64,000 nt of DNA from Candidatus Hydrogenedentota bacterium (GTDB lineage: Bacteria > Hydrogenedentota > Hydrogenedentia > Hydrogenedentales > JAEUWI01): contig JACPGE010000060.1 in assembly GCA_016182605.1 (NCBI GenBank), forward strand, positions 73,807 to 137,806, in the 5' to 3' direction. The notes under the pieces were generated by a model, which saw only the letters and a list, made by a program, of their open reading frames with translations, did no database searches and was not told where the DNA came from. Shown in pieces: positions 55,325 through 60,495 of this stretch. Numbering within the stretch: the stretch's first letter is position 1; every line of letters starts with the position of its first letter. Made by a program: the position numbers and the translations under genes.

Positions 55325-55353
55325 TTGACGGGCGGAAACAGAAATAGTATAAT
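55325..55353 (+). promoter_or_regulatory. Promoter of the Rrf2 gene
   Basis: TTGACG at 55325-55330, 17-base spacer, perfect TATAAT at 55348-55353. Start expected near 55360, with AAGGAG about six bases before the ATG. Confidence 0.8.
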
Positions 55354-55365
55354 CGCATGTGATTA
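55350..55365 (+). promoter_or_regulatory. Rrf2/NsrR-like operator 1
   Basis: Palindrome TAATC-gcatgt-GATTA overlaps the -10 box and the start region. Its reverse complement matches the sequence at 55910-55925 in 14 of 16 positions. Proposed autoregulatory site. Confidence 0.65.
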
Positions 55366-55375
55366 AGGAGATGCC

Positions 55376-55798
55376 ATGTTGAGCAAAACGGCAAAACATG
55401 CCCTGCGCGCCTTGGTGCTGCTGGCCCAGGCGCCCCAAGGGGAACCTCAGGGCGCGGCGGATATCGCCGCCCGGATCGATGCCCCAAAGAACTATTTGAG
55501 CAAGATGCTCAAGGTGCTGGCGGAGCACGGCGTGCTGGCCTCGCAGAAAGGCATGGGCGGTGGATTCATCCTGGCGCGCCCGGCGAATGAGATTCGCCTG
55601 CTGGACATCGTGGATCCCTTTGACCGCGTGCGCCATTGGACAGACTGCATCATGGGGATGCGGGCCTGCTCGAGCGAGAAGCCCTGCGCCCTGCATGACA
55701 AGGCCGCCGCCGTGCGGACAGGGTATATCCAATTGCTGGAGGAGAGCACCCTGGCGGACGCTGCAGAAATGGGCGAGGCGCAGGCGCTGATGGAGTGA
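55376..55798 (+). CDS. Rrf2-family regulator, NsrR-like
   Basis: 140 residues. Rrf2 HTH: LSKTAKHALRALVLLAQ, DIAARIDAPKNYLSKMLKVL and the wing GGGFILARP. The three conserved cysteines are in CIMGMRACSSEKPC (residues about 91-104), the [Fe-S] sensor of NsrR/IscR-type proteins. NO destroys the cluster in NsrR. Its neighbours are an NO reductase and a di-iron repair protein, so NO sensing is likely. An operator overlaps its own promoter. Confidence 0.93.
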   Translation: MLSKTAKHALRALVLLAQAPQGEPQGAADIAARIDAPKNYLSKMLKVLAEHGVLASQKGMGGGFILARPANEIRLLDIVDPFDRVRHWTDCIMGMRACSSEKPCALHDKAAAVRTGYIQLLEESTLADAAEMGEAQALME

Positions 55799-55909
55799 AC
55801 GGCCACGTATCCCGCGGGGCCGGACACGGCCCGTTTTCGGAGTGACAGAAGGCGCCGGCAATCCGGGCAAACGACAGAAATGAATCCCTTGTTGCAGCTA
55901 TAAATAGGA

Positions 55910-55925
55910 TAACGACATGCGATTA
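55910..55925 (+). promoter_or_regulatory. Rrf2/NsrR-like operator 2
   Basis: TAACGACATGCGATTA lies 21 bases upstream of the NnrS-like start. It is the reverse-orientation copy of operator 1 (14 of 16 identical). Candidate -10 elements TATAAA or TAGGAT lie just upstream, but no -35 is obvious. Confidence 0.6.
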
Positions 55926-55945
55926 GAAAAAGCGGAGACCCGGCG

Positions 55946-57421
55946 ATGAATCGCGAATTCCACACCGAACCGGACCCCTGCCGGACTCGGCAAATTCATG
56001 TGCCCTTCTTCCTCACCGCGATAGGCCTGGTGTTGACCCTGGGCGCCACGTGGGGGGCCTGGCTGCTGGTGCGCATCGCGGCGTCAGGGACCTTCACAGC
56101 CGTGGGGCTCCATGAAGTGAATGCCCATGGTCACGCACAGATCTTCGGCTGGGTCGGCGTCTTCTTGATGGGCCTGGTCTACCGGGCGTGGCCGGGCTTC
56201 TGGAAGGTGTCCTTGCAGTGGCCGGCGCTGGCATGGGCCAGCCTCGTCCTGATGGCCTTGGGGATTGTGCTGCGCACGGTCAGTGAGACCTTGCTGCCAC
56301 AGGCCTCGTGGTGGATCTATCCCGGGGGGCTGGGCGGCGGACTCGAAGTGGCCGCGATCACGATCTTCCTGCTGGTGCTGTGGCGAAGCGCCCGTGGCGC
56401 CCAGAACGGATGGGCATTGGCCGACGCCTACCTGATGGCGGGCGCCGGATGCTTCCTGCTGCAGGCCGTGGCAGACGTGGCCTACTTCGCGGCCACGGCG
56501 ATGGCGGCAGATCGGGAGGCCCTGCTCGTGCTGGTCTCCACGTGGCAGGGACCCCTTCGAGACCTTCAGATTCACGGCTTCGGAACACTGATGGTGCTTG
56601 GGGTGACGCTGCGGGTATTGCCGGCATGGTATGGTCTGCGGCCGGTGGGCCGGCCCACCGGCGCCGCCGCGCTGCTGGGCATCCTGGCAGGGCTGCTCTG
56701 CGAGGCCGCGGGACTGCTCCTCATGCGAACACAGGGACATGCCTGGGCGGCGCTGTGGTATTCGGGCGTCCTGCTCCTGCTCGCCTCGGCCCTGGCGTTG
56801 GTCTGCGCGATGGAACTGCATCGACCGGTGACGCCGCGCGATCCAAGTCTGAAATTCCTGCGCGCGGCCTGCCTGTGGTTTCTGCTCTCGCTGTCCATGC
56901 AGGCGGCCCTTCCGGCCTACCAGTTTCTCGTGCTGCCCCACTTCTCCCCGGACAGCGAAGCGGCCGCAATGGGCTTCTCCCACGCCTACTACGGCGCGAT
57001 TCGCCATGCGATCGCCGTGGGCTTTCTCAGCCTGATGATCGTGGGGCTCTCCTCGCGGGCGGCGCGCCGCTTCCGGGAAGAGAAAACAGCAATGGCCAGC
57101 GCGGGCACACCCCCATGCCCCGTGCCCCCTGCCCATGCACCCGCGTCCCCGGGCGCCACGATACCCGGCTCCTTGTGGTCCGTCTATCTCTTGCTCAACC
57201 TCGGCTGTGCGATGCGCGTCACGGCGCAGACACTGACCGATTTCACTGACAACGCTTTTCCGGTGGCGGGCATGAGCGGCCTGCTGGAGGTGCTCGGACT
57301 CACCCTGTGGTCCATGCACCTGCTCCGCGAACTCGCGCCAAAACCGGCGTCTTCCAGCCGGGCTCGTGGCGCCGGACAGCACGCCGTGCCCCCCCTGCCC
57401 CACACTGCAGAACAACACTAA
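55946..57421 (+). CDS. NnrS-like polytopic membrane protein
   Basis: 491 residues with about 12 membrane helices. It contains VNAHGHAQIFGWVGVFLMGL (His near residues 54-57), QIHGFGTLMVLGVTLRVLP and GAIRHAIAVGFLSLMIVGL, three spaced His motifs that suggest heme and metal ligands. NnrS proteins (heme-copper) help cells withstand NO. Assignment to NnrS itself is tentative, as overall identity cannot be judged by eye. A Pro/Ala-rich loop lies near 390-410. It is followed 11 bases later by norZ and so belongs to the same operon. SD is AGCGGAG before the ATG. Confidence 0.75.
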   Translation: MNREFHTEPDPCRTRQIHVPFFLTAIGLVLTLGATWGAWLLVRIAASGTFTAVGLHEVNAHGHAQIFGWVGVFLMGLVYRAWPGFWKVSLQWPALAWASLVLMALGIVLRTVSETLLPQASWWIYPGGLGGGLEVAAITIFLLVLWRSARGAQNGWALADAYLMAGAGCFLLQAVADVAYFAATAMAADREALLVLVSTWQGPLRDLQIHGFGTLMVLGVTLRVLPAWYGLRPVGRPTGAAALLGILAGLLCEAAGLLLMRTQGHAWAALWYSGVLLLLASALALVCAMELHRPVTPRDPSLKFLRAACLWFLLSLSMQAALPAYQFLVLPHFSPDSEAAAMGFSHAYYGAIRHAIAVGFLSLMIVGLSSRAARRFREEKTAMASAGTPPCPVPPAHAPASPGATIPGSLWSVYLLLNLGCAMRVTAQTLTDFTDNAFPVAGMSGLLEVLGLTLWSMHLLRELAPKPASSSRARGAGQHAVPPLPHTAEQH

Positions 57422-57432
57422 GGAGAATCCGC

Positions 57433-59736
57433 ATGCAGTATCGACGATTATGGATTGCCCTAATCACCGTCATGGCCGTGTCCTTCGCCGTGCTCGGTTA
57501 CTATGGCACGGAACTCTACCGAATGAAGCCCCCCATCCCCGAGCGGGTGGTGGCTGCGAATGGCACGGTGCTCTTCACCGCCCAGGAGATCATGGACGGC
57601 CAGAACGTGTGGCAGTCCACCGGCGGCCAGCAGTTTGGTTCGGTCTGGGGCCACGGCTCCTACCTCGCGCCGGACTGGTCGGCCGACTGGCTGCATCGCG
57701 AGGCAACGTGGCTCCTGGACCACTGGGCACAGGCGGACTATGGCCTGGCCTATGACGCCCTGGATCTGGAACGCCAGGGGGCCTTGCGCGCGCGCCTCAA
57801 GGCGGAGCTGCGCACCAACACCTACGATGCGGCCACCGGCACGCTCACCGTCTCCGATGTGCGCGCCGCGGCAATCGGCGCAACCGGCGAACACTACACC
57901 AAGCTCTACGGGGGCGACCCCGGGCTGGCGGGCCTGCGCGAGGCCTATGCCATGCCCTCCGTGACCCTGCCCGACCCGGAGCGCCGCCACAAGTTGACCG
58001 CCTTCTATTTCTGGGCCTCATGGGCCTGCGCCACAAACCGTCCGGGGCAGACGATCACCTACACCCAGAACTGGCCGCCGGAATCCCTCATCGACAACCG
58101 CCCCACCGGGGCCAATGTCATGTGGTCGGTCGTGAGTTTCGTGCTGCTGCTGGCCGGTGTCGGAGCCCTGGCCTGGTATTACGCGGTGCTGCAGGGCCGC
58201 GGGCATGACGATCCCGCGCCGGAAGAAAATGATCCGCTGCTCGGGCTGAACCCCACGCCCTCCATGCGGGCGACCCTGAAATATTTCTGGGTGGTCGTGG
58301 CGCTGATTGTGGCGCAGGTGGGCCTGGGCGGCGTCACGGCGCACTATGGCGTGGAAGGCGCAGGCTTCTACGGGATACCGCTGGCGGAGATCCTGCCCTA
58401 CGCCGTGACGCGCACATGGCACACCCAACTGGCCATCTTCTGGATTGCGACCGCCTGGCTGGCAACCGGCCTCTTCATGGCCCCCGCCGTGTCCGGCCAC
58501 GAACCGCGTTTCCAGCGGCTGGGCGTAAACGTGCTTTTCACCTCCCTCCTCATTATCGTGGTGGGCTCCATGTTCGGCACGTGGTACGCAACGCGGCAGC
58601 GCATGGGGCTCGAAATGAACTTCTGGTTCGGCCACCAAGGCTATGAATACGTCGATCTGGGCCGCTTCTGGCAAATCTTCCTCTTCGCGGGCCTCTTCAT
58701 CTGGCTCGGGCTCATGACACGCGCGCTCTGGCCCGCATTGCGCCGCCCGGGAGAGCACCGTCAATTGCTCGCCCTGTTCCTGCTGTCCAGCGCGGCCATT
58801 GCGCTCTTCTACGGCGCCGGCTTGATGTGGGGACGCCAGACCCACCTGGCGATGGCCGAATACTGGCGCTGGTGGGTGGTCCATCTTTGGGTGGAAGGCT
58901 TCTTCGAAGTTTTCGCCACGGTCATCATCGCCTTCCTCTTCACGCGCATGTCGCTCCTGCGCACCTCCACGGCCACTGCGGCGGTGCTCTTCTCCACGAC
59001 CATCTTTCTCGCCGGCGGGATCATCGGTACCTTTCACCACCTCTACTTCACCGGAACGCCAACCGCCGTGCTGGCGCTCGGCGCCGTTTTCAGCGCCCTC
59101 GAAGTCGTGCCCCTCGTGCTCATCGGATTCGAAGGCTACGAAAACCTTTCCCACAGCCGCGCAAAACCGTGGGTCGCAGCCTACAAGTGGCCCATCTACT
59201 GCTTCGTCGCCGTCGCCTTCTGGAACCTCGTGGGCGCGGGGCTCTTCGGCTTCCTCATCAACCCGCCAATCGCCCTCTACTACATGCAGGGACTGAACAC
59301 GACGGCGGTCCACGGCCACACCGCACTCTTCGGGGTCTACGGCATGCTGGGCATTGGCCTGACGCTGTTCTGCCTCAAGGGGCTCACCGTACGCAACACC
59401 TGGAAGACGGGCGCGTTGACCTTCGCCTTCTGGTCGATCAACATCGGGCTGGCACTCATGGTCGGACTGAGCGATCTGCCCCGCGGCCTCCTGCAAGTCT
59501 GGGCAAGTGTGAATGACGGCATGTGGATGGCCCGTTCGGCCGAATTCACCCAAACGGGGCTGATGGACACGCTCCGGTGGCTCCGGGTGATTGGTGACAC
59601 CATCTTCGCCCTGGGCGTCGTCTCCCTCGCCTGGTTCGTGCTCGGCCTGAAAACGGGCTGGTCCCTCGAAGACCGGCGGGATCCGGCATTGGCGGCCCTC
59701 TCGGCGCGGCCTGAACCGCTCCAAAACCAGCAATAA
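57433..59736 (+). CDS. norZ: Quinol-dependent nitric oxide reductase
   Basis: 767-residue qNOR. It has an N-terminal cytochrome-c-like fold without heme motif (about 35-240: QEIMDGQNVWQSTGGQQFGS) and a NorB catalytic core. The histidines for heme b, heme b3 and FeB appear in TRTWHTQLAIFWIATAW, VVHLWVEGFFEVFATV (with Glu), TFHHLYFTG and TTAVHGHTALFGVYG. It reduces NO to N2O using quinol, for NO detoxification. AGGAG lies seven bases upstream of ATG 57433. It is the central gene of the cluster. Confidence 0.96.
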   Translation: MQYRRLWIALITVMAVSFAVLGYYGTELYRMKPPIPERVVAANGTVLFTAQEIMDGQNVWQSTGGQQFGSVWGHGSYLAPDWSADWLHREATWLLDHWAQADYGLAYDALDLERQGALRARLKAELRTNTYDAATGTLTVSDVRAAAIGATGEHYTKLYGGDPGLAGLREAYAMPSVTLPDPERRHKLTAFYFWASWACATNRPGQTITYTQNWPPESLIDNRPTGANVMWSVVSFVLLLAGVGALAWYYAVLQGRGHDDPAPEENDPLLGLNPTPSMRATLKYFWVVVALIVAQVGLGGVTAHYGVEGAGFYGIPLAEILPYAVTRTWHTQLAIFWIATAWLATGLFMAPAVSGHEPRFQRLGVNVLFTSLLIIVVGSMFGTWYATRQRMGLEMNFWFGHQGYEYVDLGRFWQIFLFAGLFIWLGLMTRALWPALRRPGEHRQLLALFLLSSAAIALFYGAGLMWGRQTHLAMAEYWRWWVVHLWVEGFFEVFATVIIAFLFTRMSLLRTSTATAAVLFSTTIFLAGGIIGTFHHLYFTGTPTAVLALGAVFSALEVVPLVLIGFEGYENLSHSRAKPWVAAYKWPIYCFVAVAFWNLVGAGLFGFLINPPIALYYMQGLNTTAVHGHTALFGVYGMLGIGLTLFCLKGLTVRNTWKTGALTFAFWSINIGLALMVGLSDLPRGLLQVWASVNDGMWMARSAEFTQTGLMDTLRWLRVIGDTIFALGVVSLAWFVLGLKTGWSLEDRRDPALAALSARPEPLQNQQ

Positions 59737-59784
59737 CAAATGAACGCTGCCCCCCACGGGGCGGCAACCACGGAGGATAAATAC

Positions 59785-60495
59785 ATGGAAACGAATTGCA
59801 CGGTCGGCGCCTACGTGAAGGAACGCCCCAGCCGGGCGCGAGTCTTCGAAGCCTTCGGCATCGATTACTGTTGTGGCGGCAAGCGCAGCCTGGAGGAAGC
59901 CTGTGCCAAAAAAGGCGTAGACGTGGAGGCGGTGCGAGCCGCGCTACGCGAGGCGGACCAGGCCGGCACGGACGAGGAGAATGCGGCCAATCTGGACTGC
60001 CCGGCCCTGGCCGATCATATTGAGGCTACGCATCACGCCTACTTGAAGATGGAGTTGCCCCGCCTGAAGGCCATGACGGAAAAGGTGGCACGGGTCCATG
60101 GCGAGGAGGAACCGCGCCTGCACCAGGTCCGCGACGTCTTCGACCATTTCCAGGCCGATCTGCTGCTCCACATGCAGAAGGAGGAGCGCGTGCTCTTCCC
60201 CGCGATTCGCCAGGCCTTCACTGGAGAAGCCCTTTCCCCGATCGCCCAGGTTCTGGCCGGTCCCATCGGCGTGATGGAAGCCGAACATGCGGAAGCGGGC
60301 AATGCGCTGGAAACCCTGCGGACACTCACCGACGGCTATGAACCCCCTGAATGGGCCTGCAACACCTACCGGGCGCTCTTTGACGGGCTCGCACAAATCG
60401 AACGCGACATGCACCGGCACGTGCACAAGGAAAACGAAATTCTGTTCCCCCGGGCACTGGAACATATCGCCGCGTTGACCGCACAGGCCGGCTGA
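59785..60495 (+). CDS. ric: Iron-sulfur cluster repair di-iron protein (Ric/YtfE/ScdA)
   Basis: 236 residues. An N-terminal ScdA domain (YCCGGKRSLEEACAKKG) is followed by a hemerythrin-like di-iron domain: ALADHIEATHHAYLKMELPR, HFQADLLLHMQKEERVLFP and MEAEHAEAGNALE, with HVHKENEILFPRALE near the end. These supply the His and Glu ligands. It repairs NO- or peroxide-damaged [Fe-S] clusters. Start ATG 59785 has CGGAGGA about nine bases upstream. It completes the NO defence operon. Confidence 0.95.
   Translation: METNCTVGAYVKERPSRARVFEAFGIDYCCGGKRSLEEACAKKGVDVEAVRAALREADQAGTDEENAANLDCPALADHIEATHHAYLKMELPRLKAMTEKVARVHGEEEPRLHQVRDVFDHFQADLLLHMQKEERVLFPAIRQAFTGEALSPIAQVLAGPIGVMEAEHAEAGNALETLRTLTDGYEPPEWACNTYRALFDGLAQIERDMHRHVHKENEILFPRALEHIAALTAQAG

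Follow-up and report, generated by a model that had tools for sequence, protein, structure and literature searches.

A conserved operator-like palindrome accompanies an Rrf2 subfamily distinct from NsrR and its neighbouring nitric oxide defence genes in Hydrogenedentota

NsrR, as described in Escherichia coli, Streptomyces coelicolor (5N07) and Bacillus, has the Rrf2 fold and three cysteines, is autoregulated and controls nitric oxide (NO) detoxification genes; its targets include norB, nnrS and dnrN/ytfE, and its published 19-bp operator consensus is gATGyAT-N5-ATrCATc (PMC1274295). Asp8 is the fourth ligand of the iron-sulphur (Fe-S) cluster in S. coelicolor NsrR, and Cys104 and His107 are ligands in E. 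coli IscR (PMC5411485), which also has three cysteines and represses its own gene. The Thermus NsrR, part of the nsrRST cluster, regulates nor and nir genes, has a ScdA-domain partner and a palindrome of its own, CTTGACCNNGGTCATGG, and activates nor (PMC5748679). RsrR and RirA belong to the same Fe-S Rrf2 family. Here we describe a locus from a 64-kb window, the whole stretch of DNA analyzed, which is part of contig C117 of the 6.76-Mb draft genome G000 of Hydrogenedentota. At this locus an Rrf2 gene is followed by nnrS-like, norZ and ric genes, and related copies of a 16-bp near-palindrome are found before the Rrf2 gene and before the genes that follow it. The proposed mechanism is of a known kind, that of the Fe-S Rrf2 repressors of NO defence, within which the subfamily and its predicted operator are separate; no description of either was found in a literature search leaving out most subscription journals.

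The palindrome and its conservation

The sigma-70-type promoter of the Rrf2 gene, as read from the sequence, spans 55325..55353 (+ strand, as for all features given below), with TTGACG at 55325-55330 and TATAAT at 55348-55353, separated by a 17-base spacer. The predicted operator 1, TAATCGCATGTGATTA (55350..55365), begins within the -10 box and reaches the ribosome-binding site of the gene, which occupies 55376..55798. It is an imperfect palindrome, 14 of its 16 bases being equal to its own reverse complement. Operator 2, TAACGACATGCGATTA (55910..55925), matches operator 1 at 14 of 16 positions when read on the opposite strand, and ends 20 bases 5' of the nnrS-like ATG (55946). Both sites had been noticed in an earlier, sequence-only reading of this DNA, which counted the gap as 21 bases and called the second copy reverse-oriented; the match on the other strand holds, and the label means little, as the site is near-palindromic. 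Within the 64-kb window three matches to the operator with up to 3 mismatches were found, self-match counted, versus 0.19 expected by chance.

Orthologues of the regulator were gathered from 68 genomes of Hydrogenedentota and from named contigs, and the comparison set consists of 22 non-duplicate loci, at least 39% identical to the window Rrf2, including two Omnitrophota metagenome-assembled genomes (MAGs). The operator, with consensus TAATnnCATGnnATTA, overlies the gene's own -10 box in 19 of them, the two Omnitrophota MAGs among these, mostly in the form TATAATnnCATGYGATTA; a TTGACA-N17-TATAAT promoter layout is common to nearly all. A position weight matrix, trained on operator-1 sites only, was then used to seek second sites. 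Of the 19 loci, 16 have one directly 3' of rrf2 and ahead of the following gene (12.0 to 29.6 bits), operator 2 of the window scoring 20.8 bits; a Markov-shuffled null gave 9 scores of at least 12 bits in 1.39 million positions, and 0 at 15 bits. The exact consensus TAATNNCATGNNATTA occurs at 17 places in the 68 genomes, 13 of which are at the regulator locus, compared with 2 for a reversed-pattern control; those in genomes lacking the regulator are apparently due to chance. Many of the compared genomes are related, and the 19 loci do not amount to 19 independent events. Sequence identity of the orthologues to the window Rrf2 is nevertheless no higher than about 40-60%, and the intergenic DNA is otherwise little alike, except for the promoter. 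Judged by these comparisons, the putative operator is a real phylogenetic footprint under strong functional constraint.

At nearly all loci with enough sequence, NO genes (nnrS-like, norZ and/or ric) lie downstream of the sites; a hemerythrin-domain gene takes their place in L018, and several loci carry a ric or hemerythrin gene only, without norZ. No operator site was found at three loci where Rrf2 orthologues stand without NO genes (L074, L083, L084), nor at the norZ loci of genomes without window-type Rrf2 (six loci, best score 11.5 bits; G066, cut inside norZ, was not counted). The motif therefore tracks regulator and NO genes jointly. Where norZ stands without the window-type regulator, no locus is explained by FNR/DNR, NsrR or NnrR patterns. 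That a shared operator ties the Rrf2 gene to NO defence had been proposed from the window alone, with absence of the motif near NO genes in relatives as the outcome that would speak against it; the 19 orthologues carrying it bear the proposal out. The pattern then suggested for searching, TAATC-N6-GATTA, proved less useful. The fuller motif is indeed kept near NO genes in relatives, but the loose one is uninformative genome-wide: with 1 mismatch it occurs at 37 places (9 in the reversed control), once in perfect form, and nearly always without the CATG core. A looser palindrome, sought in 17 genomes, occurs outside the locus at about control level.

Candidate extra sites in G042, G035, G047, G036, G015 and G052 look like chance. 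The sequence TAATCGCATGCGGTTA of G053 (L126:3431-3446, 21.9 bits) was also rejected as an extra target, since sister genomes give no support; it sits just before an open reading frame whose secreted product has a single CxxCH and matches neither Pfam nor NCBIfam families.

Beyond the phylum, a sample of 291 genomes of Bdellovibrionota was analyzed, where the subfamily is rare and clearly present in five genomes. G281 has 18-bit sites in the region separating a hemerythrin-rrf2 pair from the gene divergent to it, and also 61 bases 5' of norZ; in G186 a weaker site (12.1 bits) covers the gene's own -10 box, and a hemerythrin gene is next. The Bdellovibrionales MAG G070 has two 22-bit sites (L171:2517-2532 and L172:2240-2255), one before the gene of a multihaem cytochrome distantly similar to hydrazine dehydrogenase and one between narK and moeA, a placement which suggests a wider N-oxide regulon; a third, of 20.6 bits, precedes a cheW gene and seems to have no connection. 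The orthologues in G180 and G160 lack a site of this sort at their own gene, as does one orthologue in G070, and the predicted operator code is kept only in part in Bdellovibrionota. Upstream of the Rrf2 gene of G180 (L188) we observed TAATAGCAT-ACATAT-ATGCTATTA, where the same half-sites stand 6 bases apart without overlapping, possibly a re-spaced operator. The sequence-only reading had considered a lineage-specific code; with sites in two Omnitrophota MAGs and weaker ones in Bdellovibrionota, the code is, as far as the compared genomes indicate, a property of the regulator subfamily and not of one phylum.

An Rrf2 subfamily outside the NsrR clade

The window regulator (140 amino acids) scores 98.5 bits on PF02082 (cut-off 30) and 100.2 bits on TIGR00738 (cut-off 73.3), and its membership of the Rrf2 family is clear. 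On the NsrR model NF008240 it reaches 44.8 bits, the cut-off being 182. In a maximum-likelihood tree one clade (100/99) unites the NsrR proteins of E. coli and S. coelicolor with a group of proteins from Hydrogenedentota; the window subfamily is placed outside this clade. The alignment shows C91-x6-C98-x5-C104-x2-H107 to be invariant across the subfamily, and Lys, Leu or Ile at the position of NsrR Asp8. What the sequence-only reading had called an NsrR-type cysteine cluster is present as far as the three cysteines go; these are a general feature of Fe-S Rrf2 proteins, not specific to NsrR, and the C-x6-C spacing and His107 give the C3H ligand pattern of IscR.

The protein differs from IscR as well. 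Its closest NCBIfam equivalog scores are those of suf_reg_Xantho (56.7 bits) and IscR (TIGR02010, 56.6 bits), the latter far below the cut-off of 207.55; the adjoining genes are NO genes, with no isc operon, and the operator is another one. RsrR is its best sequence match in PDB, and it obtains 38.7 of the 193 bits required by the RirA model; the targets of both differ from those of the window type. As to the operator, the half-site had rightly been said to differ from the published NsrR motif: the consensus is 16 bp long versus 19, the best match to gATGyAT-N5-ATrCATc in the window has 4 mismatches, and the Thermus palindrome is also unlike it.

A separate NsrR-type gene, with Asp8 present and 140.4 bits on the NsrR model (under the cut-off), is found on contig C95 of the same genome, divergent from a bacterial globin gene which is followed by a ferredoxin reductase gene (L145:2120-8178). 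Its orthologues are present in 18 genomes, and nsrR and glbN were already noted in Hydrogenedentota by an earlier MAG study (PMC10866078). The canonical ATGyAT-N5-ATrCAT site before these orthologues is perfect in G054 (GATGTATGTAGTATACATC) and has 1-2 mismatches in several others; the G000 gene itself shows a weak match, with 4 mismatches. The two Rrf2 types occur together in at least 9 genomes. By tree, model scores and alignment, the window regulator is assigned to an Rrf2 subfamily distinct from NsrR, with a predicted operator of its own. An Rrf2 gene beside NO genes need not mean NsrR, and such genes are likely misnamed.

Predicted regulation and competing explanations

We consider it probable that the protein is an Fe-S Rrf2 repressor, distinct from NsrR, which would bind TAATnnCATGnnATTA, repress its own gene and silence the nnrS-like/norZ/ric genes until relieved by NO. 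An Rrf2 dimer at operator 1 would cover the -10 box, and autorepression is proposed because of this overlap; as a second site is present, the same dimer is proposed to repress the operon too. NO, produced by intracellular nitrate/nitrite reduction or coming from outside, would damage or nitrosylate the 3Cys-1His cluster; the repressor would then release the DNA, and NO reductase, NnrS-like protein and Fe-S repair protein would be made until NO is gone. NO appears the most likely signal because of the target genes and the Fe-S chemistry of the family. A search of G000 found narGH, no NirK and no match for NirS; therefore NorZ more likely clears by-product NO of nitrate reduction, or NO from neighbours. 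Regulator and predicted operator form a pair open to testing, from a phylum that is uncultured.

Several points weigh against this proposal. Binding by the Rrf2 protein, the cluster, the NO signal and repression are predictions from sequence. Asp8, the NsrR ligand displaced by NO, is absent from the window regulator; NsrR variants D8A and D8C stay NO-sensitive (PMC5411485). Operator 2 was not found in L075, and a few other loci (L071, L080) have it in degenerate form. In L074, whose protein is 51% identical and shares the recognition helix, there is no site. Moreover, what a C3H site like that of IscR detects might just as well be Fe-S supply or redox state. The main rival builds on this last point, leaving repressor and operator unchanged and taking Fe-S cluster status, iron or redox as the true signal; the C-x6-C-x5-C-x2-H pattern, and the loci with a ric or hemerythrin gene but no norZ, would fit it. 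We hold it to be unlikely, since the loci examined showed no recognisable isc or suf genes, norZ and nnrS are NO-specific, and the G070 sites at narK/moeA and at the multihaem cytochrome gene indicate N-oxides.

The remaining explanations carry far less weight. NO detoxification targets, three cysteines and autoregulation would all be expected of the lineage's own NsrR with a drifted operator, which is the identity originally given to the regulator. It is very unlikely in view of the tree, the score of 44.8 against 140 bits for the other Rrf2 of the genome, the missing Asp8, the canonical NsrR sites belonging to orthologues of that other gene, and the coexistence of both types. Even less credit is given to the idea that an FNR/DNR-type activator, and not the Rrf2 protein, binds the palindrome, the Rrf2 gene being a mere passenger. 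In other bacteria nor and nnrS are under the control of such factors (PMC1274295), and operator 2 lacks a clear -35 box; but the motif goes with the Rrf2 clade, norZ loci lacking this Rrf2 do not have it, its sequence differs from TTGAT-N4-ATCAA, and it covers the -10/start region, where an activator would block. Least probable of all is a conserved core-promoter sequence or RNA hairpin. TAAT is indeed common to the motif and the -10 box; CATGnnATTA, however, is no promoter element, the palindrome begins inside the -10 box, so that its 5' half would not be transcribed from that promoter, and the motif is kept at operator 2, in a promoter with other upstream sequence.

Accompanying genes and a third Rrf2 paralogue

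The first gene after operator 2 (55946..57421) encodes an NnrS-like membrane protein of 491 amino acids, with a borderline PF05940 score (27.5 bits, gathering cut-off 28); its orthologues are clear, at 47-61 bits. In some relatives (L068:1643-3502, L016:6484-8382) the NnrS-like protein also carries DUF1858 domains (two matched stretches), which the window copy is without. The norZ gene follows (57433..59736; 767 amino acids), its product being recognized as a quinol-type NO reductase by the fusion of a NorB cytochrome c-like domain (PF22085, 241.5 bits) with a COX1 domain (PF00115, 193.7 bits); orthologues are up to 82% identical to it. The last gene, ric/ytfE/scdA (59785..60495; 236 amino acids), encodes a di-iron Fe-S cluster repair protein, scoring 248.9 bits on TIGR03652 (cut-off 204.7), with PF01814 and PF04405 domains, and is the sole match in its genome.

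No clear -35 box accompanies operator 2. About 20 bases before operator 2 there is a T-run, TTTTTTTG, followed by a AAAATCAGA-like stretch touching the operator; the arrangement is conserved in L067-L073, L076, L078, L079, L081 and L082. As an rrf2 terminator the T-run would fit L068, L069, L079 and L082, not all loci, and it may be a terminator tail in part.

Beside the NsrR-type gene, whose neighbouring ferredoxin reductase frame runs on into what looks like a nonribosomal peptide synthetase (1698 amino acids; an unusual fusion or join), G000 has a third Rrf2 gene, of the MYSKGC type (MYSKGCQYAL...), on contig C101 (L146:6149-12886). A haem-domain gene and narGH follow it directly; NarG scores 1532 bits, above cut-off. 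Of its TGGA-N8-TCCA sites, TGGAGGAAAACATCCA covers the start region of the regulator gene itself, and GTGGATAATTTTATCCGG adjoins a TTGACA box upstream of the nar genes. It is possible, and we propose it only tentatively, that three Rrf2 paralogues with three DNA codes divide N-oxide metabolism in this genome, the NsrR type serving globin and ferredoxin reductase, the TAATnnCATGnnATTA type nnrS/norZ/ric, as an NO sensor with an IscR-like 3Cys-1His cluster, and the TGGA-N8-TCCA type narGH. A paralogue set with different operators in one genome is natural material for studying the choice of DNA and signal by Rrf2 proteins. Sites similar to TGGA-N8-TCCA are also found in the relatives L041, L042, L043 and L067, where they are likewise nar-linked, and in L079.

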